Assembly (NCBI RefSeq): GCF_020055635.1
Contig: NZ_JAIPUT010000046.1
Span: 1-35,727 of the forward strand
Direction: 5' to 3'
DNA from: Marivita sp.
Lineage (GTDB): Bacteria > Pseudomonadota > Alphaproteobacteria > Rhodobacterales > Rhodobacteraceae
DNA length: 35,727 nt
The translations under genes were made by a program, and so were the position numbers. The notes beneath the pieces are model-generated. The model did not search any database, was not told where the DNA came from, and saw only the letters and a program-made list of their open reading frames with translations. Numbering within the stretch: the first letter of the stretch is position 1; each line of letters opens with the position of its first letter. Shown one piece after another: positions 1-28,197 of this stretch.

Positions 1-808
1 TCAGGTCCTGCACATAGATCACGGCGGGATCGCCCTTGGCGTCATGCTTGGGTTTCATCCCGTGATCGGCCGTCACCACGATGGCCGCGCCCATCGCATC
101 CAGCTCGGCCAGATAGCGATCGAACATGGCGTAGAAATCCTTGGCGCCCTGCTCATCGGGGGCGAACTTGTGCTGGATGTAATCGGTGGTGGACAGGTAC
201 ATCAGGTCCGGTTTCCACTCTTTCAGCAGCTTTACACCAGCAGCGAAGACAAATTCCGACAGCTCGGCGGAATAGACCTCGGGCACCGGCATACCGAGCC
301 AGTCGCTGGCCTTCTCGATGCCGTGTTCGGCTTTGGTCGTGTCGCCGGATCGCTCGGAGGAAAACGCAATTGCGCGGTCTTCGTCGAACTTCAGACCCGC
401 GCCCAGTAACGCGCGCAGCTTGTCTTTGGCAGTGACAACGGCGACCCGTGCGCCAGCGTCGTAGAACTTGGAGAATACGGTGGGCGCACGGAGGAAGCGC
501 ACGTCGTTCATCATCACCTCTTCGCCGGTTTCCGGTTCACACAGGAAGTTGCCGCAGATGCCGTGCACCGATGGCGGGCGGCCCGTGGCGATGCTCATGT
601 TGTTGGGGTTGGTGAAGGACGGGATCACCGAATGGGCCAGTCGGTCTGTGCCGGTTTCGCGAATGCGCTTGAGCGTCGGCATCAGCCCTTCGGCGATGGC
701 GACCTCAAGATATTCGGGTTCGCAGCCATCCAGACAGATCGCGATCGCGCAGGTTTTGGGCGCGGGGTAGGTGCGGTCATTTGCGACCACGGGGTTCTCA
801 ATCGGCAT
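1..808 (-). CDS. phnA: Phosphonoacetate hydrolase PhnA, C-terminal part beyond window
   Basis: Phosphonoacetate hydrolase cleaves the C-P bond of phosphonoacetate to acetate and phosphate; it is a zinc enzyme of the alkaline phosphatase superfamily. The 269 visible residues carry the family's metal site. I see D27 in AICLDGCEP, the threonine nucleophile T66 in PSFTNPNN, D209 and H213 in STTDYIQHKF, and D248-H249 in VTADHGM. All sit a constant two residues before the positions I recall for the Sinorhizobium meliloti enzyme. The remaining C-terminal residues, including the last zinc-binding His, lie outside the left edge. The ATG at 808 is preceded by AGGAAG and lies 10 nt after the phnW stop, so the two genes form an operon. 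The gene name refers to this hydrolase, not to the unrelated E. coli PhnA. Confidence 0.93.
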   Translation of the reverse strand, partial: MPIENPVVANDRTYPAPKTCAIAICLDGCEPEYLEVAIAEGLMPTLKRIRETGTDRLAHSVIPSFTNPNNMSIATGRPPSVHGICGNFLCEPETGEEVMMNDVRFLRAPTVFSKFYDAGARVAVVTAKDKLRALLGAGLKFDEDRAIAFSSERSGDTTKAEHGIEKASDWLGMPVPEVYSAELSEFVFAAGVKLLKEWKPDLMYLSTTDYIQHKFAPDEQGAKDFYAMFDRYLAELDAMGAAIVVTADHGMKPKHDAKGDPAVIYVQDL

Positions 809-818
809 ATCTCTTCCT

Positions 819-2000
819 TCAGGCGGCGAGTTTCTTGCGTTCTTCCAAAGCGGCGGCAGGCGGGGCCGCGCTGCTGACCTTCATGTCTTTCAGGGCGTCG
901 CGGGCGGCATCCACCACGCGGCGCATCACGTGTTCATCCATCTGCCCGATCACCCCGATGCGGAAGCTGTCCACCACGGTCAGCTTGCCGGGATAGATGA
1001 TGAAACCACGTTTCTTCATGGCCTCATAGAAGGCCTGAAAGCTGAAGTTCGGATCGGCGGGGCAGAAGAAGGTCACGATGATCGGACTGAGCCAGCGGTC
1101 GGCCAGCAATGTCTCGAACCCCAGATCGCGCATGCCCTGCACGATCACGTCGCGGTTGCGGGTGTAGCGCGCGCCACGTGCGGGCACACCGCCTTCAGCT
1201 TCGTGCAGGTCCAGCGCCTTGAGGAAGGCGGCGACCACATGGGTGGGCGGCGTAAAGCGCCATTGGCCGGTCTTTTCCATCGTGGCCCATTGGGCGTGTA
1301 CGTCCAGCGACAGCGAGTGCGAGTTGCCCTTGGACGCCATGATCTCGTCCTTGCGGGCGATGACAAAGCCGAAGCCGGGGACACCCTCGATACATTTGTT
1401 GGCCGAGGACACGAAGGCGGCGCAGTTGAGTTTGACGGGGTCCAGAGGCAGGGCACCAAAGGCGGACATGCTGTCGATCAGCAGCTTGCGCCCGGCGGCC
1501 TGCGTCGCCTGCGCGATTTCCTCGACCGGGTTCAGGATACCGCTGGAGGTCTCGCAATGGATCGCCAGCACATGGGTGATGGCAGGATCATCGGCGAGGA
1601 CGGCAGCAACCTCGTCCCCGCGCGGTGGAAGGTAGTCGCCCTTGTCGAGCAGGTGACAGGATCGCCCGAGGTAATCCAGCGTTTGCGCCGCACGCAGGCC
1701 GTAGGCGCCGTTCGACAGGATAAGCACCTTGCCGTCGCGGGGCACGAAGCTGCCCAGCATCGCCTCGACGCAATAGCTGCCCGAGCCCTGGATCGGAACG
1801 CAGTCGTAGTCCGGCGCACCGTCACCGATCAGGGCCAGCAAGCGGCTCCGCATGGTCTTGGTCATGGTGCGGAAATCGTCATCCCAGCTGCCCCAATCCT
1901 TCAACATCTCCTGCTTTACGGCATAGGATGTGGTCAGCGGGCCGGGCGTCAGAAGATACGGCTCCCCAAGTCTGGGATCGGGCAGAGGCGGGACAGGCAT
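819..2000 (-). CDS. phnW: 2-aminoethylphosphonate--pyruvate transaminase PhnW
   Basis: PhnW moves the amino group of 2-aminoethylphosphonate to pyruvate, giving phosphonoacetaldehyde and alanine. It is a cytoplasmic PLP enzyme of aminotransferase class V. The N-terminal [10 protein letters not shown] signature, the [11 protein letters not shown] segment and the PLP lysine in [15 protein letters not shown] (about K202 from the chosen start) identify it. I chose the ATG at 2000 because GGAG lies 7 nt upstream; an in-frame ATG at 2033 would add 11 residues but has only a weak ribosome site. The product is 393 aa, within the family range. Because phnA follows directly, phosphonoacetaldehyde is expected to be oxidised to phosphonoacetate (PhnY type) rather than hydrolysed by PhnX. 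No phnY is in the window; it may lie past the left edge. Confidence 0.95.
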
Positions 2001-2065
2001 GGCGCGGCTCCGTTGGTCGGCATCGCCAGTCATATGCGCCGCAAAGCCCCATATGTAAAATCTTT

Positions 2066-2095
2066 GTTCTCTATCGAATTATAGGCTAGGCTTAT
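2066..2095. promoter_or_regulatory. Candidate LysR operator in the phnW/lysR divergent promoter
   Basis: The AT-rich gap between phnW and the LysR gene holds ATAGG-CTAGG-CTTAT at 2081-2095, an imperfect dyad that includes T2082-N11-A2094, the classic LysR box form. It overlaps CTATCGAATTATAG (2071-2084), itself a CTAT-N6-ATAG dyad. A closely similar pair of elements lies in front of the phosphonate monoester hydrolase gene (2994-3017). Read in the direction of phnW, the box centre is about 88 nt upstream of the phnW ATG. Binding by the adjacent LysR protein is inferred. Confidence 0.55.
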
Positions 2096-2118
2096 GGAAC
2101 CTTAATACGGAGCGGTCG

Positions 2119-2997
2119 ATGCGGTACAGCCAGTTGCGTGCGTTCCATAACGTCGCCTTGCACGGGGGGTTCTCCCGCGCGGCGCGGGCGCTCAATATTT
2201 CGCAACCCTCCGTATCGGATCAGGTGCGCCAGCTTGAACAGCGCCATGACGTGCTCTTGTTTTCACGCGAAGCTCGGCAGGTGCAGATGACAGCCGCCGG
2301 AGAAGCATTGTTCCGGCTGACAAGCGAGATGTTCGAAGTCGAAGAACGGATCGCCGCGCTTTTCGATGAAAACCGAAAGGCCCTTTCGGGGCATCTGCGG
2401 ATCATGGCCGACTCTGCGATGCACGTCACCGAAGCCGTGCGGCGCTTTCGGGAATCCAGTCCGGACGTGTTTGTCACCATCCGCACCGGGAACACGGAAG
2501 ACCTGCTGCGGCGCCTGCGCAATTACGAAGCCGAGATCGGGGTCGTCGGAAATTCCATTTCGGCGGCCGATCTCGACTCGGTCGATCTGGGGCGGACTCC
2601 GATCCTTGGTTTGGTCGCCAAGGGATATTTCCCGGAGGGCACGGGCCAACTGCGGTTTCGTGATCTCGGCAACCATCCGTTGGTCTACCGCGAGCAGGGA
2701 TCCCGGACACGTGCGCAGGTCGAGGAAGAAGCGGCGCGGCTTGATCTTGACCTAGTGCCGGCGATTGAGGTCGAAGGCCGTGAAGCGATGCGCGAAGTGG
2801 TGGCGTCAGGCGCGGGGATCGGCTTTATCAGCGAAGCCGAGTTCGGTCATGATCGGCGGCTACAGGCGATACCGTTTGCGGATGTCGATATCGGGATGTG
2901 GGAATCCCTGGTGACCTTGTCGGCGCGGCGGGACGTTCCGTTGATCCGGGGCTTTCTGAAAGCGGTTCAACGATCTCTGGCGGAGCCAGATATATAG
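2119..2997 (+). CDS. LysR-family transcriptional regulator, probably of the phosphonate genes
   Basis: This 292-residue protein is a full-length LysR regulator. Residues 1-60 form the winged helix-turn-helix, with LHGGFSRAARALNISQPSVS as the recognition region. The linker helix follows, and from about residue 90 the type-2 periplasmic-binding-like effector domain runs to the end, including GREAMREVVASGAGIGFISE. The ATG at 2119 has GGAG 6 nt upstream. It is divergent from phnWA and co-directional with the downstream hydrolase, the usual layout for a LysR activator of its neighbours. The TAG stop lies inside the second candidate LysR box. The effector is likely 2-aminoethylphosphonate or a related metabolite, but nothing in the sequence proves this. 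Confidence 0.9.
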   Translation: MRYSQLRAFHNVALHGGFSRAARALNISQPSVSDQVRQLEQRHDVLLFSREARQVQMTAAGEALFRLTSEMFEVEERIAALFDENRKALSGHLRIMADSAMHVTEAVRRFRESSPDVFVTIRTGNTEDLLRRLRNYEAEIGVVGNSISAADLDSVDLGRTPILGLVAKGYFPEGTGQLRFRDLGNHPLVYREQGSRTRAQVEEEAARLDLDLVPAIEVEGREAMREVVASGAGIGFISEAEFGHDRRLQAIPFADVDIGMWESLVTLSARRDVPLIRGFLKAVQRSLAEPDI

Positions 2998-3017
2998 GTT
3001 TTACCTATCGAACTATA
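2994..3017. promoter_or_regulatory. Candidate LysR operator upstream of the phosphonate monoester hydrolase
   Basis: ATAGG-TTTTA-CCTAT at 2994-3008 is a perfect five-base inverted repeat with T2995-N11-A3007, a textbook LysR box. It runs directly into CTATCGAACTATA (3005-3017), which matches CTATCGAATTATA at 2071-2083 in 12 of 13 bases. The box overlaps the stop codon of the LysR gene, and its centre is 80 nt upstream of the preferred start of the hydrolase. That distance is close to the one in front of phnW, which suggests both target genes are controlled by the same protein. Confidence 0.6.
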
Positions 3018-3080
3018 TAAATGACCTCTCTTTACATATGAATACCGCTTGGCATGATCAGACCAATCCTGGGAAATGCC

Positions 3081-4580
3081 GTGACCAAGACCAAGCTGAA
3101 TACACTTTTCATCGTGATCGACCAGTTGCGCGCGGACTGCGTGTTCGGGGCATTGGGCGCCCATCTTGATCTCCCGAATATCCGGGCATTGGCGCGTGAT
3201 GCGGTGTCGTTTGAAAATCATTATTCGGTCGCGTCGCCCTGCGGTCCGTCGCGCGTGTCGCTGCTGACGGCGCAATACACGTCGAACCATGGCGCGACCC
3301 GCAATGGCACACCTCTCAAGCGCGATACTCCGAACCTGGCATCTGTGCTGCGGGACGATGGCCTTGACCCGCTGCTGTTTGGCTATACCGACACGGCGCA
3401 GGATCCGCGTTTCCTGCCGCCCGATGATCCGCGGCTGTTTTCCTACGAGGAAGTCATGCCCGGTTTCTCCGAGGTGCTGCGGATGCGGCTGGAGGGGGAT
3501 TCTCGGGCGTGGGAAGAAAACCTGCGCGCCAATGGCTATGACGTGCCACCTTATCCCGAGCTTTATCGTCCTGCCGGCGACACCCCCGATGCGCCCGCGC
3601 TTTATGCTGCCGAGCACAGCGATACCGCGTTTCTGACCGACCGGACCATCGCCGATCTCGATGCGCGGGAGCCGGGCTGGTTTGCCCTGCTGACCTATAT
3701 CCGCCCGCACCCGCCTTTCGTGGCACCCGCGCCATATCACGCGATGTATGACGCCAAGGACATGCCGTCGGCCAAGACCGCTGACGACCCGGACTGGCAT
3801 CCCTTTGTGACCACGGCGCGGAACAAGGCGTCGGTTGCGTCTACGGTCGTCGGCTTTCCGGATCTGGCCGCCTCGGATGAGACCACGCGGATGATCCGCA
3901 AGCTGTATTTCGGCCTCGCGACCGAGGTGGATCATCACATCGGCCGGCTAATCTCGTGGCTCAGGGAAAGCGGGCAATATGACAACACTCTGATCGTGCT
4001 GACCGCCGATCATGGCGAAATGCTGGGCGATTACGGTCTTTGGGGCAAGATGACCTTCCACGATGCGGCCTTCCATGTGCCGCTGATCATTCGCAACCCG
4101 CAAAGCCCTGCGCGCGGTGCCGTCGTCACAGCACCGACGGAGTCGACGGATGTCACGCCGACGATCCTTGACTGTCTTGGGCTGGATGCACCGCATTCCA
4201 TGGATGGGCGAAGCCTCAAGCCGTTTCTCGAAGGCAGGACCCCAAAGGACTGGAAACAGATCACGGTGTCCGAACTGGACTTCGGGAATCCGCTGGTTCC
4301 GACCGCCTGGCAGAGCGCGCATGGCCTGACGTCCGACGCGGCGAATCTTTCCGTTCTGCGCAAAGAATCGCTGCGCTATGTGCAGTTTGCCGGAGGGTTG
4401 CCGCCTATCCTTATGGATGTATCGGACGGCACCGAAACGCGGAATCTGACAAAAAAACCGGCACATGTGCAGACAATGCTTGATTTGATGCACGAATTGC
4501 TTTGCCATCGAATGGTTAATTCGGATGGCACATTTTCGAAGACACTGATTACCGAGGATGGCGTTAAGGTGGCCTCGTGA
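3081..4580 (+). CDS. Phosphonate monoester hydrolase / sulfatase-family enzyme
   Basis: This alkaline-phosphatase-superfamily hydrolase resembles the Rhizobium and Burkholderia phosphonate monoester hydrolases (PMH), which cleave the ester bond of phosphonate monoesters and some phosphate and sulfate esters. The FIVIDQLRAD segment supplies the first metal aspartate. C54 in SPCGPSR is the CxPSR site converted to formylglycine in this family. LTADHGEMLGDYGLWGK supplies the second Asp-His pair. The product is 499 aa from the GTG at 3081, which has GGGAA just upstream; an ATG at 3054 would add nine residues without a clear ribosome site. PMH and type I sulfatases cannot be separated with certainty by eye. 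Location between phnWA/LysR and an ABC importer, with a shared operator, favours a phosphonate ester substrate. Maturation needs a formylglycine-generating enzyme encoded elsewhere. Confidence 0.82.
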   Translation: MTKTKLNTLFIVIDQLRADCVFGALGAHLDLPNIRALARDAVSFENHYSVASPCGPSRVSLLTAQYTSNHGATRNGTPLKRDTPNLASVLRDDGLDPLLFGYTDTAQDPRFLPPDDPRLFSYEEVMPGFSEVLRMRLEGDSRAWEENLRANGYDVPPYPELYRPAGDTPDAPALYAAEHSDTAFLTDRTIADLDAREPGWFALLTYIRPHPPFVAPAPYHAMYDAKDMPSAKTADDPDWHPFVTTARNKASVASTVVGFPDLAASDETTRMIRKLYFGLATEVDHHIGRLISWLRESGQYDNTLIVLTADHGEMLGDYGLWGKMTFHDAAFHVPLIIRNPQSPARGAVVTAPTESTDVTPTILDCLGLDAPHSMDGRSLKPFLEGRTPKDWKQITVSELDFGNPLVPTAWQSAHGLTSDAANLSVLRKESLRYVQFAGGLPPILMDVSDGTETRNLTKKPAHVQTMLDLMHELLCHRMVNSDGTFSKTLITEDGVKVAS

Positions 4581-4814
4581 CCCGAAGCACTGTCATGGAT
4601 CTGTCACGATTGGCAGGGATACAAGGCCCGGCTGTTCACGCACCGGCTGGGGATACAAAGGAGACAACACGCCGGAGTTCAGTCCGTGGCGCGACACTGT
4701 CTGCCAGAGTGTCCGCGCGTGAGTCCGGACATCCGAAATGACCGGCTGTGAAAACGGACCGGGACAAGAAGGGGGAACAGCCCCCGTCACCACTTGGAAC
4801 CAACAGGAGAGACA
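4581..4814 (+). other. Non-coding leader between hydrolase and ABC importer
   Basis: This 234-bp gap shows no convincing gene. It contains two near-identical short direct repeats, GGGATACAAGG (4616-4626) and GGGATACAAAGG (4650-4661), and three copies of CCGGCTG (4628, 4643, 4743). A small GC hairpin, GGGGG-aacag-CCCCC, sits at 4771-4785 shortly before the start of the binding-protein gene. The gap is long enough for a separate importer promoter, but no clear -35/-10 pair or copy of the LysR-type dyad was found. Confidence 0.4.
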
Positions 4815-6854
4815 ATGAAACGGATCCTACTTTCAGGCGTGGCCTTGATTGCGCTTCCGGCAGCGGCCTATGCCAATTGCCCGGCAATCACGATGGCCGA
4901 CATGCAGGGTATCGACCCCGGTGAATACCCCCAGCAATATGAACTGAGTGCCTTTCAAGAGGCAGCCGGTTGCTCCATGGAGTTCAAGGCGAACCCCGAG
5001 ATCGACGCGCTGAACGCGCAGATCAAGGGAAACCCCGAGCTGCCGCCGCTGTCAGAGCGTCTTCCGGCGGAACCGCTTGTGATGGTGCCGTATGACAGCA
5101 TCGGTCAGTATGGCGGTGAATTGAACGCCCTGTCCAACGCGACCGAAGCGGGCACTTCGGACTTTTTGTCCGTGCGCCACGTGAACCTGGTGCGCTATTC
5201 CGACGACCTTCAGACGATCGTTCCGAACATCGCGAAGTCCTGGGAATGGAATGACGATTACACACAGCTGACCTTCACCCTGCGCGAAGGACACAAGTGG
5301 TCCGACGGAGAGCCGTTCACCAGCGCCGACGTGGCGTTCTGGCACGACAACCTAATGCTGGACACGAACATCTACGAACAGCCCCGCGACTATGTCACGG
5401 TCGGCGGCGAAACGATGACGGTCGAGACACCGGATGACGTGACGGTGATCTTCAACCTGCCGGGGCCCAAGCCGGGTCTTCTGACGCATTTCGCGACCAC
5501 CTATGCGCCGGGCTTCCAGCCGAAGCATTTTCTTGGTCAGTTCCATCCGGACATCAACCCGGATGCCGACAGCTATGCGCAGTCCCTGGGCTTCGAGAAT
5601 GGCTATGATGCCATCCTCGCCTATTACGGCAACTCGGACTGGACAGATACGCCGACGCCGATGCTGTCGCGCTCGGATATCGTCGACGGCTTGCCCAAGG
5701 CCACGATGCCGACGCTGGAATCGCATATCTACATCACCGACACCACCGAGGGTCGGAAACTGGTGGCCAACCCCTATTTCCACCAGGTCGACACCACCGG
5801 TCAGCAGCTTCCGTATATCTCGACGCAGGACGAGCTTTACATCAACGACAACGAAGTGCGCATCCTCAAGCTGGTGAACGGCGAAGTGGATTACAAATCG
5901 CAATCCGTGCGTCTCGAGTCCGTGCCGTTGCTGCTGGAAAACCAGGAAAAGGGCAACTACGCGATCCAGCTCAAGCCGACAGTCGGCATGCCCGCCTTCA
6001 GCTTCAACTTCACCATCGAAGACGAAGCCAAGCGCGCGGTCTACAATGACATCCGGTTCCGCGAAGCGATGTCTCTGGCCATCAACCGGGACGAATTGAA
6101 CGAGATCGCCTATTTCGGTCAGGGCACACCCAGTCAGATCGCACCGTTCAACCCGGCGCCCAGTTTCGTTGATCCCAGCTGGGAAACCTACAAGGCCGAG
6201 TTCGATCCCGACACGTCAAAGGCGCTGCTTGACGAGATCGGTATGGTCGATGTCGATGGCGACGGGTTCCGTGAGCTGCCGAACGGCGACAAGGTCACGC
6301 TGAACATGCAGTTCTCGACCCAGGGCATCGCCGGGGCGGTGGTTGAACTTGTCGGTCAGAACTGGGCCGATGTCGGTGTGCAGACGCAGGTCAAGGAAGT
6401 GACCCCGGATGAATACCGGTCTGCCCAATCGGCCAACAACCTCGATGTGGGCCTGTGGCAATACGGGGCACCGCTGGCGATCCACCTGGGCCTGAACAGC
6501 TTCTTCCGTCCGCCGTTCGGGACCTATTTCGAACACCGTACCGGGATGCTCTGGGCGGAATGGCTGGATACAGATGGCGCGTCAGGCGTGGAGCCGCCGG
6601 AATGGGCCAAGAAGCTGGCCGCCGATATCGACGCGTTCCAGTCGGCCGTTCCCGGCACGCCGGAATCCGACGCGCTGGGTGCCGGTCTTGTCGAGAATTT
6701 CGTCGGCAACATGGTGATGATCGGCACGGTGAAAGCGCCCGAACCGATCTATGCCAGCAACAACCTCAAGAACTTTACCGAGTTCCGGACATGGTCCTAT
6801 GAATATTACCGGACCTACCCCTACCGCGCGACGCAGTGGTGGCTGGACGAATAA
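4815..6854 (+). CDS. ABC importer periplasmic solute-binding protein, family 5
   Basis: This 679-residue protein is a family 5 (DppA/OppA-like) extracytoplasmic binding protein. A signal peptide covers about residues 1-20, MKRILLSGVALIALPAAAYA, with likely cleavage before NCPA. The family core follows, with LRYSDD-like and WSDGEPFTSADVAFW segments and later DIRFREAMSLAINRDELN. It is longer than typical DppA (about 530 aa), placing it in the large-ligand subgroup. Two cysteines near the mature N-terminus (C22, C53) could form a disulfide; there is no lipobox. The ATG at 4815 follows AGGAGAG; upstream in-frame codons lack a ribosome site. It heads a five-gene importer cluster. Ligand class cannot be read from sequence; context suggests an organic phosphonate, with oligopeptides or sugars as alternatives. 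Confidence 0.9.
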   Translation: MKRILLSGVALIALPAAAYANCPAITMADMQGIDPGEYPQQYELSAFQEAAGCSMEFKANPEIDALNAQIKGNPELPPLSERLPAEPLVMVPYDSIGQYGGELNALSNATEAGTSDFLSVRHVNLVRYSDDLQTIVPNIAKSWEWNDDYTQLTFTLREGHKWSDGEPFTSADVAFWHDNLMLDTNIYEQPRDYVTVGGETMTVETPDDVTVIFNLPGPKPGLLTHFATTYAPGFQPKHFLGQFHPDINPDADSYAQSLGFENGYDAILAYYGNSDWTDTPTPMLSRSDIVDGLPKATMPTLESHIYITDTTEGRKLVANPYFHQVDTTGQQLPYISTQDELYINDNEVRILKLVNGEVDYKSQSVRLESVPLLLENQEKGNYAIQLKPTVGMPAFSFNFTIEDEAKRAVYNDIRFREAMSLAINRDELNEIAYFGQGTPSQIAPFNPAPSFVDPSWETYKAEFDPDTSKALLDEIGMVDVDGDGFRELPNGDKVTLNMQFSTQGIAGAVVELVGQNWADVGVQTQVKEVTPDEYRSAQSANNLDVGLWQYGAPLAIHLGLNSFFRPPFGTYFEHRTGMLWAEWLDTDGASGVEPPEWAKKLAADIDAFQSAVPGTPESDALGAGLVENFVGNMVMIGTVKAPEPIYASNNLKNFTEFRTWSYEYYRTYPYRATQWWLDE

Positions 6855-6868
6855 GGGTCATTGACCTT

Positions 6869-6895
6869 GCCACGGGCGGTTCTGCCGCCCGTGGC
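6869..6895 (+). terminator. Strong hairpin between binding-protein and permease genes
   Basis: GCCACGGGCGG (6869-6879) pairs perfectly with CCGCCCGTGGC (6885-6895) around a 5-nt loop, 14 nt after the binding-protein stop, followed by GTTTCTC. The U tract is poor, so this is more likely an attenuating or mRNA-stabilising stem than a full terminator. Such stems are known to raise binding-protein level over the membrane subunits. Confidence 0.6.
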
Positions 6896-6972
6896 GTTTC
6901 TCAAGAATGAAAGCTGTCTGAAAGGCACACCGGATCAACCGGAGGCGCAGACGCAACCCAGGGGCAAGCTTC

Positions 6973-7977
6973 ATGTTGAATTTTGCGCGCTTCGTGATGA
7001 CACGTGCAGTGCTGGCGATGATCACGCTGATCATCGTGTCGCTGGTCGTGTTCTCGCTCATGGAGCTGGTGCCGGGCGATTGTGCCGAACGGTATCTCGC
7101 GTTCAAGAACACCCAGGGCTCGGGAATTTCAGCCGCCGATATCGAGAACGAGCGCATCCGGCTCGGGCTTGACCGGCCATTCCTCGAACGCTGGGGCAAA
7201 TGGATCGTGAACGCCTTCCAGGGTGAATTCGGGGACAGCTGCATCCTGCGTGTGAACATCGCCCAGCTTCTGGGCGACAAGTTCTGGATCTCGTTGGGGC
7301 TGTGCCTTGCGTCGCTCGCGCTGGCCTACGCGATTGCCCTGCCGGTCGGCATCATCGCCGCCGCATCGGACAACGCGGTTCTCAACAATTCGCTTCGCCT
7401 GTTCAGCTATCTTGGTCTGGCGCTGCCGAACTTCCTGCTGGCGCTGATGATCATGCTGTTCTCGACGGTCTATTTCGGAGACACGCTGACGGGGCTCTTC
7501 TCGGCCGAATACCGCGATGCGGACTGGAGTTGGGGGCGGGTCGTGGACCTGCTCAGCAATGCCTGGCTGCCCATCTTCATCCTTGGCTGGTCGGCCACCG
7601 CCTTTGCGCTGCAAACCGTGCGCGCGCTGATGTCCGACGAGATCGGCAAGCTTTATGTCACGGCCGCATCGGCGCGGGGGGTGCACGGGCGCAAACTCTT
7701 GTGGAATTACCCGGCGCGGCACGCGCTGGGGCCGATCGTCAACAGCCTTGGCTTCGATCTCAACCGCATCTTCAACGAATTGCCGATCGTGGCGCTGATC
7801 CTGACGCTGACCGAAGCGGGGTCGCTTCTGATCGAGGCGCTGGCCCGGTCGAATGACCAGCAGCTTGCCGGTGCGATCATCTTCCTTCTGACCGCGTCCA
7901 TCGTGACGCTGAATTTCCTGACGGACGTCATGCTTGCGGCTCTTGATCCGCGCGTCCGCAAGAGCATCGTGAGGTGA
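6973..7977 (+). CDS. ABC importer permease, DppB type
   Basis: This is the first transmembrane subunit of the family 5 importer (334 aa). It has an N-terminal membrane helix (about residues 10-30), a periplasmic stretch of about 70 residues, and then the conserved core of five helices. The ABC-coupling loop is present around residues 220-250, in the region of ASARGVHGRKLL. The periplasmic stretch has two cysteines, C37 and C90. Its ATG has GGGG upstream. The next permease gene starts 4 nt after its stop, consistent with one transcript and paired synthesis. It lies in the inner membrane and forms the translocation channel with the second permease. Confidence 0.92.
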   Translation: MLNFARFVMTRAVLAMITLIIVSLVVFSLMELVPGDCAERYLAFKNTQGSGISAADIENERIRLGLDRPFLERWGKWIVNAFQGEFGDSCILRVNIAQLLGDKFWISLGLCLASLALAYAIALPVGIIAAASDNAVLNNSLRLFSYLGLALPNFLLALMIMLFSTVYFGDTLTGLFSAEYRDADWSWGRVVDLLSNAWLPIFILGWSATAFALQTVRALMSDEIGKLYVTAASARGVHGRKLLWNYPARHALGPIVNSLGFDLNRIFNELPIVALILTLTEAGSLLIEALARSNDQQLAGAIIFLLTASIVTLNFLTDVMLAALDPRVRKSIVR

Positions 7978-7981
7978 CGCC

Positions 7982-9181
7982 ATGACGACGACACCCGATC
8001 CCCTCAAGCCGAACATGGCCGAAACCACCGGCCCGCATGTGCAGGTCGTGGAAACCGACGCCGCCGTCGAGCGCCGGTCGAAAGAGGCGTATTTCACCGC
8101 CTCGCAGGGGCAGCTGATCTGGGCGCGGTTCAAGAAACAACGCTCTGCCATGATCGCGGCCAGCGTTTTGCTGTTCCTTGTCCTGTCCGGAATTTTCGCG
8201 CCGTTCCTGTCACCCTACAATCCGACGATTGCCGGCAAGAACGATGACTACACCAACGGCGCGCCACAAATTCCGATGTTCTGTGATACCAATGGCTGTT
8301 CGCTTCGGCCCTTCGTTCACGCGGTGGAACGGGAACGGTCGATGGCGACGAATTTCCGCTGGGTGACGACGATCAACGAGGACGAACGCAACTACGTGCA
8401 TTTCTTCGTCGAAGGCTGGGAGTACAAGCTGTTCGGCTTCATCCCGATGGACACGCATCTGTTCGGCACGCAGGAAGGGTTCATCCACGTCTTCGGCACC
8501 GATGCCAGCGGCAAGGACATCTTTTCCCGCACCTTCCATGCCATCTGGACCTCGTTACAGGTGGGTACCATCGGCGTGTTGATCGCCTTTGTCCTCGCGC
8601 TCGTGATCGGAGGGGTGTCCGGCTATTACGGCGGCTGGATCGACTCCGTCCTGCAAATGATCACCGATGCGGTCCGAACGGTGCCCGCCATTCCGCTCTT
8701 CATGGCGGTGGCGGCCTTCATGCCACCCGAGCTATCGGCCGAGGAACGGTTCTTCTACATATCCCTGATCCTTGGCCTCATCGGCTGGCCCACGCTGGCG
8801 AGGCGTGTACGGACGCACCTGCTGACCGAACGCAATCAGGAATACGTATTGGCGGCTCAGCTTTGCGGTGCGTCCTCGGGCCACGTGATCCGGCGCCATC
8901 TGCTGCCCAGCTTCACCAGTTACATCATCGTCGATCTGGTGATCTCGTTTCCCTACATGGTGCTGTCGGAAACCGCGCTTTCCTTCATTGGCCTTGGCCT
9001 CAAGGACCCGGTGAACAGCCTTGGCGTGATGCTTCAGAACGTGACCAGCGCCGACGTGCTTCTCAATTATCAATGGTACTTCATCCCGGTGATCTTTTTC
9101 ATCGCACTGGTGATGGCGTTCGTGTTTGTCGGAGACGGCTTGCGCGACGCGGCAGACCCCTATTCGGACAACAACAAATGA
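7982..9181 (+). CDS. ABC importer permease, DppC type with long periplasmic loop
   Basis: This second transmembrane subunit is 399 aa, against about 300 for standard DppC. The extra length is an N-terminal cytoplasmic tail of about 55 residues and a periplasmic insert between helix 1 and helix 2, about residues 78-180, which includes a CDTNGC cysteine pair (C101, C106). From about residue 180 the permease core is normal: LQVGTIGVLIAFVLALVIGG begins it and the coupling loop contains LCGASSGHVIRRHLLPS. GAGGTGA precedes the ATG. Its stop overlaps the next ATG as ATGA. Long-loop DppC relatives occur beside large binding proteins, as here. Confidence 0.92.
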   Translation: MTTTPDPLKPNMAETTGPHVQVVETDAAVERRSKEAYFTASQGQLIWARFKKQRSAMIAASVLLFLVLSGIFAPFLSPYNPTIAGKNDDYTNGAPQIPMFCDTNGCSLRPFVHAVERERSMATNFRWVTTINEDERNYVHFFVEGWEYKLFGFIPMDTHLFGTQEGFIHVFGTDASGKDIFSRTFHAIWTSLQVGTIGVLIAFVLALVIGGVSGYYGGWIDSVLQMITDAVRTVPAIPLFMAVAAFMPPELSAEERFFYISLILGLIGWPTLARRVRTHLLTERNQEYVLAAQLCGASSGHVIRRHLLPSFTSYIIVDLVISFPYMVLSETALSFIGLGLKDPVNSLGVMLQNVTSADVLLNYQWYFIPVIFFIALVMAFVFVGDGLRDAADPYSDNNK

Positions 9182-10173
9182 CCGCGCTGATCGACGTTGA
9201 AAACCTGACGCTCAAGTTTCGCACCGACGAAGGGCTGATCACCGCTGTCGACAATGTGAGCTTTTCGCTTGGGACCGGAGAGGTGATGGGGCTGGTCGGT
9301 GAATCCGGGTCGGGCAAGTCCGTGACGGCCAAGGCGCTGATGCACCTGAACGCAAAGAACGCGGTCTATACCCCGGAAAGCAAGATCACCCTGCATACCG
9401 AAAATGGGCCGGTCGATGTTCTGTCGCTCAGGACGCCGCGGGAACTGAACATCGTGCGCGGCGGTGCGGTGTCGATGATCTTTCAGGAACCGATGGCCAG
9501 CTTTGCGCCTGCGATCAGCATCGGCAAGCAGATGGTCGAACAGCTTTTGCTGCATGGCGATTACACAAAGGAACAGGCGAAACGCTGGTCGATCGAGATG
9601 CTCGATCGGGTCGGGATTTCGGATGCTGCGAAACGTTTTGACCAATACGCATTCGAACTCTCCGGCGGGATGCGCCAACGCGCAATGATCGCGATGGCGC
9701 TGTCGACGCAGCCGAAACTGCTGATCGCGGATGAGCCGACGACCGCGCTTGACGTGACCATTCAGGCGCAGGTGATCGACCTGATGAAGGACCTCGTGGA
9801 AGAGTTTCACATGGGGATCGTCTTCATCACACATGACCTTGGTGTGGTGGCACAGACCGCCGACAAGGTGAATGTGATGTATCTGGGCCGGATGATCGAG
9901 GAAGGACCGGTACGCGACGTGATCCGAAACTCGAAACACCCCTATACCCAGGGGCTTCTGGCGGCGCTGCCGAAACTCGACGATCTGGATTCACCGCTGA
10001 CTCCCGTGCCGGGGGACATTCCGTCGCCGCTGGAACGGCCATCGGGTTGCGTTTTTCACACCCGATGCAGCCAGATGGTTGGTGACGTTTGCAAGACGGT
10101 CGAACCGCGTGAGCGGGACATCGACGCAAGCCACAAGGTGGCCTGCCATATCTACGAAAAGGTGCCCGCATGA
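9178..10173 (+). CDS. ABC importer ATP-binding protein, DppD type
   Basis: This cytoplasmic ATPase subunit (331 aa) has Walker A GESGSGKS, the Q-loop IFQEPM, the ABC signature ELSGGMRQR, Walker B LLIADEPTTALD and the H-loop ITHD. The C-terminal oligopeptide/dipeptide extension carries a cysteine group (CVFHTRC, VC, VACH) that in some Dpp ATPases binds an iron-sulfur cluster. The ATG at 9178 overlaps the permease stop by 4 nt; in-frame upstream codons back to 8863 run through the permease gene and are not used. It pairs with the next gene to drive import. Confidence 0.95.
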   Translation: MTALIDVENLTLKFRTDEGLITAVDNVSFSLGTGEVMGLVGESGSGKSVTAKALMHLNAKNAVYTPESKITLHTENGPVDVLSLRTPRELNIVRGGAVSMIFQEPMASFAPAISIGKQMVEQLLLHGDYTKEQAKRWSIEMLDRVGISDAAKRFDQYAFELSGGMRQRAMIAMALSTQPKLLIADEPTTALDVTIQAQVIDLMKDLVEEFHMGIVFITHDLGVVAQTADKVNVMYLGRMIEEGPVRDVIRNSKHPYTQGLLAALPKLDDLDSPLTPVPGDIPSPLERPSGCVFHTRCSQMVGDVCKTVEPRERDIDASHKVACHIYEKVPA

Positions 10174-11171
10174 GCGACGTTCTGATCCGTGCGAAAGGTC
10201 TGTCCGTCGGCTTTCCCATCGGCGGCGGGCTGTTCAGCAAACAGATCCTCAAGGCCGTCGACAATGTGTCCCTCGACATCGAAAAGGGGTCGTTCTTCGG
10301 TCTTGTCGGGGAAAGCGGGTCGGGCAAGACAACGCTGGGACGCGCACTGCTCAAGGCGGCACCGATCACCGCAGGGGGTGCGCATTACTCCGATGGCGAG
10401 GTGGATTATGACCTCGAAAACATCACAAGGGACCAACTCAAGGATTACCGCAAGCGTGCGCAACTGATCTTTCAGGATCCCTATGCCGCGCTTAGCCCAC
10501 GGATGACGGTGCGGGACATCATCGCCGAACCGCTCGAGGTCATGGGACTGACAAGGAACCGGCAGGAAACCGACGCCCGCGTGCGCGAGATCGCGGCGAA
10601 ATGCCGGTTGAACCTGGAACATCTGCGCCGTTTTCCGCACGCCTTTTCAGGTGGTCAGCGCCAGCGCATCTCGATTGCCCGCGCTTTGGTTTCGGCGCCC
10701 AAGTTCATCGTTGCGGATGAAAGCGTGGCCGCTCTTGACGTGTCGATCCAGGCGGATGTGCTGAACCTGCTCAAGCAGATCCAGTCGGAGATGGGGCTGA
10801 CCTTCATGTTCATCAGCCATGATCTGTCCGTGGTGGCACATACCTGTGACCATCTTGCGGTGATGTATCTGGGCCGGCTTGTCGAAACGGCACCGACCCG
10901 CAAGTTGTTCGCTGCGCCGCGTCATCCCTATACCAAGGCGCTTTTTTCCGCGATCCCGTCGCTCGATCCGGACGATCGTGGCACAGCGCAAAAGCTGACG
11001 GGCGAAATCCCGTCGCCGACCAACCAACCTTCGGGCTGCAAGTTTCACACGCGCTGCCCCTTTGCCATCGACCATTGCAAGCAGGTCGAACCGCAACTGG
11101 AGTCCGATGGGACGGGGCATGAGGTGTCGTGCCACCGCTGGAAGGAGCTGATGGCGCCCGTCGCGGCGTGA
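10170..11171 (+). CDS. ABC importer ATP-binding protein, DppF type
   Basis: This second ATPase (333 aa) has Walker A GESGSGKT, signature FSGGQRQR, Walker B KFIVADESVAALD (ADES instead of the usual ADEP; the catalytic Glu is kept) and FISHDLS. The C-terminal oligopeptide-transport extension has CKFHTRCPFAIDHC and SCH. Its ATG overlaps the previous stop as ATGA, so the two ATPases are translationally coupled. It closes the importer cluster. Its TGA abuts, with no spacer, the stop of the convergent gene on the other strand (TGATCA at 11169-11174). Confidence 0.95.
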   Translation: MSDVLIRAKGLSVGFPIGGGLFSKQILKAVDNVSLDIEKGSFFGLVGESGSGKTTLGRALLKAAPITAGGAHYSDGEVDYDLENITRDQLKDYRKRAQLIFQDPYAALSPRMTVRDIIAEPLEVMGLTRNRQETDARVREIAAKCRLNLEHLRRFPHAFSGGQRQRISIARALVSAPKFIVADESVAALDVSIQADVLNLLKQIQSEMGLTFMFISHDLSVVAHTCDHLAVMYLGRLVETAPTRKLFAAPRHPYTKALFSAIPSLDPDDRGTAQKLTGEIPSPTNQPSGCKFHTRCPFAIDHCKQVEPQLESDGTGHEVSCHRWKELMAPVAA

Positions 11172-13202
11172 TCAGCTGTCCAGCGGGCGCCGCATCGGGG
11201 CGTGGGTCAAGCTGCGTCTGAGGTCGTCCTCGAGGATCGGGCTGAGCGACAAGGACCCGCTCGTCGTCAGCCGCGTCGACGTGATGTAATCGCTCGACAA
11301 CCCGCCGCGCGCATCGCAGCGTGTGGCGGAACAGAAGACGGGCCAAGTGTCGAGATATGTCGCCAGTCCGCGGGCAGCCAGACGATGGAAGACCGCGTCA
11401 ATGTCGGCATGAAGGTCGGTCGCGGCCTCGAGGGAGGTTGCCTCCGAAAGCGCGGGCATTCTGTAATAGAGCCCGCTTCCCGGTGCGCTGGCCCGCGCGG
11501 CGACCTCGGCATCGAAACCGGGCTGTGCCGGAACCTGCCGCAGAACCGACACACGCAATCCCTGCTCGACCAGCGACGCGATCGACTGTTCAACAGCGGT
11601 CGCCACGTATTCTGCCTGCCGGGTGATGTCGATCGGGGTGCCGTCGGATGGGCCAAGGCGAACCGCCGGACGCGGCAGCAATTCGGCAGACCGGGCTTCG
11701 GTATAATAGAGCCAATCGGCAACAATCGTGACCTGGCGCAGGCTGGGCAGGTGCGGAACAGCTTGTAGAACCTGGTCGGAATGCTGGTCACACTCCCGTC
11801 CAGACAGGCCGACCCTCTCGGAAAAGCGTGTTTGCAAGCCGTCGGCCGGGATGCAGTTTTCCTGGCTGATCAAAAGCGTCGGCACCATGGCCCGGCGCGC
11901 GGCCTCGGCAAACCCGGCGCGCATCGACTCCAGCTGGTGATCGCCCCAGACGAGCGCTTGCGGAGCTCCGGGCGGGCCGACATGACACACTTCGAGACCG
12001 GCCAACGGGCCGTCGGTCTCGATCGGGCAGGTCAGCGCGGTGCCGCGCGTTTCAACGGCGTGGATATAGGCGTGGGCACTTTCGGGAAACCGCAGCTGAA
12101 GCCCGTGTGACGTCAGGCTGATCAACCCGTTGACGAAGAGGATACTCGCCAGAACGCCACTGATCACGAACTGGTCCAGCCCGGCGCGCTGTTCGACATG
12201 TTGCCAGAGCACCCAGGAAAAAATCGCGAACAGCAGGCAAGGGATGATCAGGACAAGGAAATCCGAATGATCTGGTCCATGGATGCTGAGTGCGCCGGCC
12301 AGTTGGGTCAGGGGGACCGCCCAGAGAAACGTGTGCAGCGTCATGCCGAACCAGCGGCGACGCAGCGCGGTCTTGCCGGGATCGACGTTGCGCGGGCGGC
12401 TGCCGAGGTAGAGAAACGCAATGCCAAGCGCCACGATGGCGCGGGCGAACAGCGTGTCACCCGTCGCCGTGATGGCAAGGATACCTGCCAGGAGGTTTAT
12501 CACCCCGATGGCGAATGCGTGTTTCAGGATCGGAAAACGATTTGTCGCGATGAAGGGGATGGCCCCGCACAGAAACGCCCATAATCCACCAAGCGGCAGC
12601 AGGCCGATATCCGGGTTCATCACCAACGACAGCATCAACGAGGCCACGGCGATGGCCCCCAGTACGGTCAGAAGCTGTGCCGGATTCCTGTTCAATCGCC
12701 AGTACAGCACTGCCAGGATCGCGCTGCATTGTCCGATCAATGCGGGGAGCCAGAGATGATCGAAAAGCCCGTCCATCCGCAATCCGCTGTCGACGGGAAA
12801 GAACAGCAGACCCAGGTTGGTCGAAAACGTGGCCGCAAGAAGAAGCGCATGGCCAAGACCGGCGAACTCGCTTGGAAGGAATACCAGCCAGCCCACCATA
12901 AACAGCAGGGCCGCACAGCACAAGATGCCGATGAAGTAAGCCTGAAGGACACAGATGACCTGCTGCCTGAAGATGTCCTGACCGCGGATCAGCTGGTTGG
13001 CGCACCACGAGCCACAGAAAACCAGCACGATATCAGCAGCAAAGGCGTTCGTGCCAAGGTTCCCGGTGCCCAGAGCTGCCAGCGCAAAGGCCAGACATGC
13101 CACCGCAAACAGGAATTGCCGCATTTCGGAACGGGCGGATTCCGTGTCTTTGAGTTGCAGGAGATCTGTCAGTCTGACGGGCAGTCGGGCTTGCACACGC
13201 AC
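11172..13202 (-). CDS. Acyltransferase-3/SGNH-like membrane protein with altered catalytic motifs
   Basis: This protein of up to 676 aa has about ten N-terminal membrane helices (residues about 30-370) followed by a soluble domain (380-676). The layout matches O-acetyltransferases that fuse an acyltransferase-3 domain to an SGNH domain and O-acetylate glycans. The first half keeps the outline: ADIVLVFCGSWCANQLI resembles GVDVFFVISGFLIT, and H149-L-W151 with Q158 matches the HTWSLAVEEQ block. However, the glutamate pair is I156-G157 and the early R-X10-H histidine is missing. In the second half the GDSH nucleophile motif reads WGDHQ (419-423) and the final DxxHLS reads STRLTTSG. I infer loss of standard catalysis. 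Start is uncertain: GTG 13202 or ATG 13124. It probably belongs with the two glycan genes upstream. Confidence 0.72.
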   Translation of the reverse strand: MRVQARLPVRLTDLLQLKDTESARSEMRQFLFAVACLAFALAALGTGNLGTNAFAADIVLVFCGSWCANQLIRGQDIFRQQVICVLQAYFIGILCCAALLFMVGWLVFLPSEFAGLGHALLLAATFSTNLGLLFFPVDSGLRMDGLFDHLWLPALIGQCSAILAVLYWRLNRNPAQLLTVLGAIAVASLMLSLVMNPDIGLLPLGGLWAFLCGAIPFIATNRFPILKHAFAIGVINLLAGILAITATGDTLFARAIVALGIAFLYLGSRPRNVDPGKTALRRRWFGMTLHTFLWAVPLTQLAGALSIHGPDHSDFLVLIIPCLLFAIFSWVLWQHVEQRAGLDQFVISGVLASILFVNGLISLTSHGLQLRFPESAHAYIHAVETRGTALTCPIETDGPLAGLEVCHVGPPGAPQALVWGDHQLESMRAGFAEAARRAMVPTLLISQENCIPADGLQTRFSERVGLSGRECDQHSDQVLQAVPHLPSLRQVTIVADWLYYTEARSAELLPRPAVRLGPSDGTPIDITRQAEYVATAVEQSIASLVEQGLRVSVLRQVPAQPGFDAEVAARASAPGSGLYYRMPALSEATSLEAATDLHADIDAVFHRLAARGLATYLDTWPVFCSATRCDARGGLSSDYITSTRLTTSGSLSLSPILEDDLRRSLTHAPMRRPLDS

Positions 13203-23138: not shown

Positions 23139-23971
23139 GCGCGGGATTCGTCACCAGCCGCGACGGCACCCGGCTTGCGTACCTGACAGCGGGCGATCCG
23201 GCCCTGCCGCCGATCGTGCTGATCCATGGGTGGGCACAATACCATGGCTGCTGGATCGACCTGATGGATCTTCTGGCCGATCGCCATCATCTTGTGGCCA
23301 TCGACCTGCGCGGACATGGCGCGTCGGACAAGCCCGAGGACGAGGCCGCCTATACCGACACCGCCCTTTGGGGCGATGACGTGCACGCGGTGATCGAAGA
23401 CCTGGGATTGATCCGGCCGGTCCTGGTCGGCTGGTCCTACGGGAGCCGGGTGATCGCGGCCTACCTGGCCACCCATGGGAATGACGATATCGCGGGTGTC
23501 GTTCTGACCGGCGGCATCCTTGCGATCGGATCGGCGCGCGAGGACTGGATGGTCGGCACGACCAGTCCCGGGCTCGACCGCGACCTGTATACCGAGGACA
23601 CCACCCGCCGTCTGGCCGCCACGGCGCGGTTCGTCGAGGCCTGCACGACCAAACCTTTGTCCCGGCAGGACTTCGCCGCGTATGTTGGTGCCAACATGCT
23701 GTGCCCCGCCCATGTCCGGCGCGCGCTGTTCGCCGCGAACGTCGATCTCAAACCCGCCTATGGGGCCATGACCTGCCCGGGTCTGGTGATACACGGCACG
23801 GCCGATACGGTGGTCACGCCGCGCACCGGCGAGATCGCCGCCGACCTGATGCAACGGGGGCGATACCTGCCCTATGACGGCATCGGTCATGCCCCCTTCG
23901 TGGAAGACCCGGACCGGTTCGAGAGCGACCTGCACGCCTTTGCCACATCCGTGACGGAGCCCGCCGCATGA
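23135..23971 (+). CDS. Alpha/beta hydrolase lodged between soeA and soeB
   Basis: This 278-residue alpha/beta-fold hydrolase has the oxyanion segment LIHGWAQYHGCW, the nucleophile elbow GWSYGS with S101, D224 in HGTADTVVTP and H252 in GIGHAPF. The triad is therefore complete and the enzyme should be active; it has no signal peptide. Its ATG overlaps the soeA stop, and its stop overlaps the soeB start, each as ATGA, so its synthesis is tied to both subunits. Its substrate is unknown: esterase, lactonase or C-C hydrolase are all possible. I do not know a hydrolase as part of the SoeABC complex. It may act in cofactor or complex maturation, or hydrolyse a sulfonate-related ester. Confidence 0.9.
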   Translation: MSAGFVTSRDGTRLAYLTAGDPALPPIVLIHGWAQYHGCWIDLMDLLADRHHLVAIDLRGHGASDKPEDEAAYTDTALWGDDVHAVIEDLGLIRPVLVGWSYGSRVIAAYLATHGNDDIAGVVLTGGILAIGSAREDWMVGTTSPGLDRDLYTEDTTRRLAATARFVEACTTKPLSRQDFAAYVGANMLCPAHVRRALFAANVDLKPAYGAMTCPGLVIHGTADTVVTPRTGEIAADLMQRGRYLPYDGIGHAPFVEDPDRFESDLHAFATSVTEPAA

Positions 23972-28120: not shown

Positions 28121-28197
28121 TGGTCGGAGTGAGAGGATTCGAACCTCCGACCCCTGCCTCCCGAAGACAGTGCTCTACCAGGCTGAGCTACACTCCG
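28121..28197 (-). tRNA. tRNA-Pro, anticodon CGG
   Basis: The minus strand folds as a complete 77-nt tRNA with encoded CCA. The acceptor arm is CGGAGTG/CACTCCG with discriminator A. The D arm GCTC/GAGC has loop AGCCTGGTA. The anticodon stem CTGTC/GGCAG has loop TTCGGGA, so the anticodon is CGG at 28163-28161, reading the proline codon CCG. The T arm is GGAGG/CCTCT with TTCGAAT. No integrase gene or duplicated tRNA 3' end was seen nearby, so this does not appear to mark an integrated element. Confidence 0.97.

Follow-up and report, generated by a model that had tools for sequence, protein, structure and literature searches.

The phosphonate importers named in the review PMC10574752 take free compounds (here and below, a cited paper stands for the accessible part of its text). 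Among the closest described systems are the AepXVW-PhnWAY clusters of marine bacteria, Rhodobacteraceae included, in which phnWAY, a LysR gene, and a dedicated ATP-binding cassette (ABC) importer lie together (PMC8316502). Part of the marine phosphonate pool is ester-bound to polysaccharides or glycoproteins, which is mostly shown for methylphosphonate and hydroxyethylphosphonate (PMC5649143, PMC8931226, PMC9381506), and a phosphonate monoester hydrolase (PMH)-type enzyme of Sulfitobacter sp. HI0054 has been proposed to free phosphonates from esters of dissolved marine polysaccharides (PMC5649143). In this study, a 35,727-nucleotide stretch of Marivita sp. (hereafter the window) was analyzed, which makes up all of contig C67 in an assembly of roughly 4.9 Mb (G000), and a PMH gene was found between phn genes and a complete family-5 ABC importer. 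The locus thus resembles the AepXVW-PhnWAY clusters. However, AepX is a small, unrelated protein that binds free 2-aminoethylphosphonate and has no PMH partner in the accessible text of PMC8316502, whereas the window combines a family-5 importer, a PMH, and a Pho box. The HI0054 enzyme is named together with alkaline phosphatase, in strains with carbon-phosphorus (C-P) lyase, and no importer is mentioned in the accessible text of PMC5649143, whereas the PMH studied here goes with PhnWAY or PhnWX and an importer of its own. On balance, I slightly favor the reading that this module may import, and then open, esters of aminoethylphosphonate and phosphoethanolamine with a sugar, a polyol, or glycerol.

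At positions 2-11171, the window contiguously holds phnA, phnW, a phn-type LysR gene, the PMH gene, and the complete importer (Table 1). An earlier note on this DNA had named these genes, and all of them were found where it had placed them, with the expected families. PhnW matches NF010006 at 556 bits, above the cut-off of 296. PhnA reaches 335 bits with TIGR02335, under the cut-off of 407.55; the match is partial (model positions 3-258 of 408, about 256 positions), since the contig ends within the gene, and PhnA aligns with the phosphonoacetate hydrolase of PDB 3szy at 447 bits. For the LysR protein, TIGR03339 (phn_lysR) is the best model, at 272 bits (cut-off, 341). PhnY lies outside the window, while in Marivita relatives its gene adjoins phnA (TIGR03250, 769 bits; cut-off, 636). 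Of the PhnWAY set, PhnW and a partial PhnA are therefore in the window and PhnY is seen in the relatives. The earlier note had PhnW and PhnA degrade aminoethylphosphonate via an oxidation step; both enzymes are present, but the route needs PhnY in addition.

The PMH belongs to PF00884. Its best NCBIfam model is NF045661 (PehA), at 396.8 bits against a curated cut-off of 900; since this cut-off is missed, the protein is not called PehA. Among solved structures, the closest is PDB 4upk, which bears the title phosphonate monoester hydrolase, matches over nearly the full length (552 bits), and has the same active-site residues, and RlPMH (2vqr) and 2w8s are within the best four PDB matches. PMHs differ from arylsulfatases at two active-site positions, having Tyr instead of Lys and Asp or Thr instead of His (PMC5488252). 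The window enzyme carries Y111 and D113 at these positions. The window enzyme was aligned with 78 relatives encoded in the retrieved loci (79 rows), rows with in-frame stops having been removed beforehand. Tyr and Asp are present in 76 of the 78 rows that cover the site (one further row is cut before it). The other two rows are distant paralogues at 32 and 34% identity and have Lys and His; the latter of them comes from the window's own genome. The formylglycine-precursor motif CxPSR (C63-G-P-S-R67) does not make this distinction; C63 and R67 are kept in 76 of 76 covering rows, including the arylsulfatase-type ones. The residue test thus ruled out the reading of the CxPSR gene as a sulfatase, and its residues class the window gene with the D-type PMHs. 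By eye, the N-terminus shows no signal peptide, so the enzyme should act in the cytosol.

The PMH gene is less uniform than its neighbors. In the Marivita-type loci L033-L041 and L055, the PMHs are 76-81% identical (70-71% in two further genomes), as compared with 84-89% for LysR, 86-93% for PhnW, and 90-97% for the permeases and ATPases. Judging by these identities, the PMH may have changed rapidly, or been exchanged, relative to its neighbors. In G002 the gene is split across two contigs, and in G007 and G010 one stop codon is flagged within the match. In L033 and L036, whose contig coordinates are identical, the open frame starts at base 10028, nine codons inside the match; the true start in the window may thus lie slightly past 3054.

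The importer has the components of family 5 (cluster C): an SBP_bac_5 binding protein, two BPD_transp_1 permeases, and two ATPases with oligo_HPY tails, the permeases and ATPases matching Opp/Dpp-type models. The binding protein is a PF00496 protein and not a TIGR03261 (AepX/PhnS2) protein, and at E 1e-60 no match to TIGR03261 was obtained in G000. An AlphaFold2 model built from 54 rows has a predicted local distance difference test (pLDDT) score of 91.9. The closest solved folds are SPH1118 (pectin), a chain titled OppA, MelB (raffinose, melibiose, and galactinol), and chitin-oligosaccharide binders, while nickel and peptide binders rank lower. Sugar binders make up 19 of the top 20 PDB chains, which represent few distinct proteins, with the OppA-titled chain as the remaining one, and the sequence search concurs with the fold search on the top structures. 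SPH1118 (PMC9314435; a cluster C protein) and MelB (Atu4661) are the nearest solved folds with named sugar ligands, sharing 26% and about 20% identity, respectively, with the window protein. Transfer of the SPH1118 ligand residues was unproductive: the ligand arginines are not conserved, and the stacking Trp594 is replaced by Tyr in 53 of 54 rows. Given the sugar-binder folds and the replaced arginines, the modeled structure suggests that the ligand likely has a sugar or polyol part, and that acidic pectin is not a likely ligand. The earlier note had thought of a glyceryl or lipid headgroup; instead of a lipid, the fold favors a sugar or a polyol as this part of the ligand, and glycerol is retained.

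Two types of this binding protein, 91-93% or 75-77% identical to that of the window and placed in different clades of the tree, occur in the Marivita-type loci (L033-L042, L053, and L055), although the adjoining permeases are 93-97% identical in the full loci. From these comparisons, it seems that the locus stayed fixed while its binding-protein gene was swapped for another, and the ligand may have changed with it.

Is the block conserved in relatives? The earlier note had held that a lack of conservation would refute its scheme; the block was found in the genus and beyond, and this refutation fails. Within the genus, the binding protein, PhnW, and PMH are each present in 16 of 17 genomes, and none of the three is in G008, a genome that is 100% complete. 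All nine Marivita-type loci that span the block (L033, L034, L036-L041, and L055) have its genes in the order phnA-phnW-LysR-PMH-binding protein-permeases-ATPases, as does the Roseovarius locus L056. PhnJ of C-P lyase is found in just 10 of the 17 genomes, so the module is independent of C-P lyase. A survey of the family was performed with 295 evenly drawn genomes, one per genus, at E ≤ 1e-140 for the binding protein, ≤ 1e-100 for PMH, and ≤ 1e-80 for PhnW, which gave 48, 47, and 55 genomes, respectively. The binding protein and PMH co-occur in 37 genomes (Fisher 4.6e-28; within 12 kb on one contig in 27), the binding protein and PhnW in 37 (8.9e-24; 14), and PMH and PhnW in 35 (3.1e-21; 15). 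Choline sulfatase, a control from the PMH superfamily, shows no association (38 of 48 importer genomes versus 225 of 295 overall, p 0.71). When 298 genomes were drawn from the whole class, the window's genome and four others had the binding protein, all four of the latter being outside the family.

Loci were also mapped from named records and family genomes, giving 67 distinct binding-protein loci with their neighbors within about 15 kb. PMH is present in 47 of them, phnW in 26, phnA in 18, phnY in 18, phnX in 7, pbfA in 13, a phn_DUF6 membrane protein gene in 16, a sodium/phosphate (Na/Pi) transporter gene in 10, an inositol-monophosphatase-family gene in 6, DeoR in 9, and LysR in 20. On the midpoint-rooted tree, loci with linked PMH are found both near the window and in the branch that stands across from all the rest, and the phnWX and phnWAY kinds are both represented; the fewest changes are 11 for PMH and 14 for phnW, on a quick tree with several long branches. 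Plasmid pSC52_2 (CP049030) of a sea cucumber gut isolate has, on one strand, the genes of the binding protein, two permeases, two ATPases, phnW, phnX, and PMH. The phnW and phnX genes also lie between importer and PMH in L154-L156, and in Pseudodonghicola (L045 and L048) phnW adjoins PMH with no such importer within 10 kb. The plasmid annotations are "ABC transporter substrate-binding protein" and "sulfatase-like" or "alkaline phosphatase family"; surveys keyed to phnD or aepX would therefore miss these proteins.

Upstream of the binding-protein gene, past the PMH gene, lies the sequence CTGTCATGGATCTGTCAC, which has one mismatch to CTGTCATNNNNCTGTCAT, the alphaproteobacterial Pho box consensus. 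It is followed after 10 bases by GATACA; GATACA is present in seven and ATACA in all of eight aligned Marivita loci. A box with at most two mismatches precedes the binding-protein gene in 15 of the 66 loci with enough upstream DNA, as compared with 0.2% in random sequence matched for dinucleotide composition; when up to three mismatches are allowed, the count rises to 22 of 66 (2.1% in random sequence). The 15 include 12 of 13 Marivita-type loci. Upstream of the nine other module genes, none of 319 stretches has a box with at most two mismatches (PMH 0/45, phnW 0/25, LysR 0/19, permB 0/66, permC 0/64, atpF 0/63, phnA 0/18, Na/Pi 0/10, and DeoR 0/9), and at three mismatches there are three for PMH, five for permB, one each for phnA and DeoR, and none for phnW, LysR, permC, atpF, or Na/Pi. 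It is thus probable that in Marivita the importer answers to phosphate starvation, while phnW would have its own LysR switch.

The neighborhoods of relatives point to a further substrate branch. In Phaeobacter MED193, the Eto operon encodes RpiR, a gamma-glutamylglycine amidohydrolase, the tripartite ATP-independent periplasmic (TRAP) transporter EtoV/W/X, an ethanolamine gamma-glutamylase, and aldehyde and alcohol dehydrogenases (PMC10132767). Genes of the same families in the same order, a glutamine-synthetase-like one included, abut the DUF6 gene and phnY in all eight Marivita genomes that were read upstream, out of 15 others with the module; a Na/Pi gene is present in three of these eight and pbfA in five. 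On this gene order, the FGase next to phnY, at first read as a formylglutamate enzyme, is now read as gamma-glutamylglycine amidohydrolase. The ligase and the two dehydrogenase genes lie beside PMH or the importer in G237, G257, G196, G166, G273, and G343. If one such operon were placed at random in each genome, 0.4 to 0.9 would be expected among the 57 other family genomes with the binding protein or PMH, against at least six found (Poisson 6e-6 to 3e-4; not all 57 were read fully). The same ethanolamine genes are on a Ruegeria conchae plasmid, which has no phnW match and has PhnD-type and DUF1045 genes at the edge of the stretch. The ethanolamine operon and the Na/Pi and inositol-monophosphatase genes were observed in relatives of the window's genome. 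Since these genes lie beside PMH or the importer with or without phnW, the ligand is probably not limited to an aminoethylphosphonate ester, as the earlier note had it.

From gene content, protein families, PMH residues, conservation, co-occurrence, the Pho box, and the fold class, all obtained by sequence, the following scheme can be proposed, in which the ligand, the direction of each step, the PhoB control, and the phosphoethanolamine branch are inferred. Under phosphate starvation, PhoB would switch the importer on via the Pho box at 4590. Once caught in the periplasm by the 679-residue binding protein, the conjugate would be carried into the cell intact through the ABC complex. The presumably cytosolic PMH would then cleave the ester, be it a phosphonate monoester or a phosphodiester. 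Released aminoethylphosphonate would pass to PhnW, PhnY, and PhnA (in other species, to PhnW and PhnX), and the inducer-responsive regulator is likely the LysR protein. Released ethanolamine would enter the neighboring gamma-glutamyl pathway, the inositol-monophosphatase-family enzyme may open the sugar or polyol phosphate, and the Na/Pi transporter may export surplus phosphate. In MED193, phospholipid head groups are opened outside the cell (PMC10132767), whereas the importer and the cytosolic PMH suggest opening inside. The core of the scheme, that an ester is imported, opened by PMH, and finished by PhnW and PhnA, was already in the earlier note; it is favored by the active site, the linkage seen in a variety of gene orders over many genera, the gene run of CP049030, and the Pho box, with PhnY as a required addition.

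May the importer instead take free 2-aminoethylphosphonate in place of AepXVW, with PMH as an accessory for other esters? AepX (TIGR03261 over its cut-off) is present in 21 of the 295 family genomes, 17 of which are among the 55 with PhnW. None of the 14 genomes with the binding protein and PhnW within 12 kb has it, compared with 17 of the 41 other PhnW genomes (Fisher p 0.0026). This exclusion fits a replacement, and the free-compound explanation thus retains some weight. However, PMH is linked to the importer more often than PhnW is (47 versus 26 of 67 loci), also where phnW is missing, and the binding protein has an oligosaccharide-binder fold and about twice the size of AepX (679 residues versus a 334-position model). 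AepX and the importer are held together by 7 of the 23 genomes where binding protein and PhnW occur apart, and all seven Marivita genomes of PMC8774927 hold PhnCDE. Taken together, a free ligand appears improbable. A little less improbable, though still unlikely, is that importer and PMH serve phosphate diesters alone, such as glycerophosphoethanolamine or sugar phosphodiesters, and that phnWAY is clustered with them as a separate pathway for phosphorus or aminoethyl compounds. PMHs also cleave phosphodiesters (PMC5488252), and genes of ethanolamine use, inositol monophosphatase, DeoR, and Na/Pi transport lie in varying sets beside PMH or the importer (R. conchae, without a phnW match; L152, L153, and L163). 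PhnW is moreover missing in 5 of the 37 genomes with binding protein and PMH (G054, G085, G089, G343, and G366), which in the favored reading suggests phosphoethanolamine or other phosphate diesters as ligands too. Such a restriction to phosphate diesters does not agree with the phnW and phnX genes placed between importer and PMH on CP049030 and in L154-L156, nor with phnW beside PMH in the importer-less Pseudodonghicola loci.

The top NCBIfam models of the importer are peptide and nickel importers, and all eleven marker genes are missing from 14 of the 67 loci. One could thus think of an ordinary sugar or peptide importer that lies beside phn genes by chance, together with a sulfatase. This is very unlikely in view of the co-occurrence and linkage statistics with their null control, the Pho box, the PMH-type rather than sulfatase residues, and the all-or-none presence in the genus.

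Several points weigh against the import and opening of such esters. The five genomes without PhnW and the marker-less loci have been mentioned, and PMH is missing from the 15 kb or so around 20 of the 67 importer loci, contig ends accounting for only some; the importer family may therefore have wider uses. The Fisher p values are overstated because genera are not independent. Of 15 plasmid records with a PMH relative (eight are from Aliiroseovarius crassostreae), two have the binding protein and 13 lack it. On four importer-less records that were read (Ruegeria pomeroyi, A. crassostreae, Ruegeria B32, and Rhizobium NLR16a), no phn-annotated gene lies within 8-10 kb of PMH, and a search at E 1e-100 gave no binding protein on these plasmids. 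Unlike the window, the R. pomeroyi megaplasmid has neither a phn-annotated gene nor such an importer within 10 kb of its PMH relative, while Rhizobium NLR16a has a different ABC binding protein and a permease about 6 kb from PMH. These plasmid neighborhoods speak against a strict pairing of PMH with the importer. The PMH scores far below the PehA cut-off, and a PF03781 search, the only one made, found no clear formylglycine-generating enzyme in the window's genome. The acidic-sugar arginines of SPH1118 are replaced, and a phosphonate pocket was not located in the binding protein. Over the whole window, four sites match the Pho box at three mismatches versus 1.97 expected, which is not clearly above chance, so the case for the box rests on its closeness, position, and conservation. 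Outside the Marivita-type loci, just 3 of 53 loci (L143, L137, and L114) have a box with at most two mismatches, and nine of 53 have one at three.

The import of intact esters, if true, would explain how bound aminoethylphosphonate enters the cell. PMHs, which have been treated as promiscuous model enzymes in the accessible literature, would gain a physiological setting, and one locus would tie together the use of phosphonate, phosphoethanolamine, and nitrogen. A broader proposal, which I make only tentatively and with some doubt, is that this would be the first importer dedicated to intact aminoethyl-phosphorus diesters (both C-P and C-O-P), that the D-type PMHs of Rhodobacteraceae would have as their physiological role the feeding of PhnWAY, PhnWX, and the ethanolamine pathway from such conjugates, and that there would be a single intake for phosphonoglycan and phosphoethanolamine-glycan fragments. 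Among the matches listed from the open-access literature, in the parts accessible, no paper pairing PMH, PhnW, and a family-5 importer was found, which is no proof of novelty. The module is assembled from known parts, and the prediction on ligand and enzyme is testable.

Table 1. Features of the phn-PMH-importer locus in the window.
Feature	Position	Strand	Details
phnA, phosphonoacetate hydrolase, C-terminal part missing at contig end	2..808	-	269 aa; TIGR02335; PDB 3szy
phnW, 2-aminoethylphosphonate:pyruvate transaminase	819..2033	-	NF010006; PDB 7e7g
LysR regulator, aminoethylphosphonate type	2119..2997	+	TIGR03339 best model
PMH/phosphodiesterase, D-PMH type; start codon uncertain by some codons	3054..4580	+	508 aa; PDB 4upk; Y111, D113
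Putative Pho box CTGTCATGGATCTGTCAC	4590..4607	+	one mismatch to CTGTCATNNNNCTGTCAT (consensus)
Candidate -10 element GATACA	4618..4623	+	presumed; 10 bases past the Pho box
Family-5 (cluster C) solute-binding protein	4815..6854	+	679 aa; PF00496, 192 bits
ABC permease, OppB/DppB type	6973..7977	+	PF00528, PF19300
ABC permease, OppC/DppC type	7982..9181	+	PF00528, PF12911
ABC ATPase, OppD/DppD type	9178..10173	+	PF00005, PF08352
ABC ATPase, OppF/DppF type	10170..11171	+	PF00005, PF08352

Some further observations were made in the window and its relatives. After the importer, on the opposite strand, an SGNH domain protein of the acyltransferase-fused type is encoded at 11172-13202, and it is kept at 60-69% identity in the Marivita-type loci. 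The sole RNA gene found in the window is a tRNA-Pro (cgg) at 28121-28197; an Rfam scan of the window at gathering scores gave nothing besides tRNA. G000 carries both PMH and choline sulfatase, yet no clear formylglycine-generating enzyme by PF03781; the PF03781 matches on its contig C28 (L172 and L173) are, as named by reading, an EgtB and a NirV-like protein. Contig C32 of the same genome has two phnJ genes of C-P lyase (8010-8822 and 22397-23197), which lie about 14 kb apart on opposite strands with unequal scores, and two copies are also present in several relatives. An EamA-type membrane protein (L034:2878-3705 and others), for which TIGR03340 is the best model under its cut-off, is encoded in 16 of the 67 importer loci. 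Finally, the phnWAY-PMH locus of G152 has a TmpA-type 2-trimethylaminoethylphosphonate dioxygenase gene (L158:15078-16196; 513 bits, cut-off 400).

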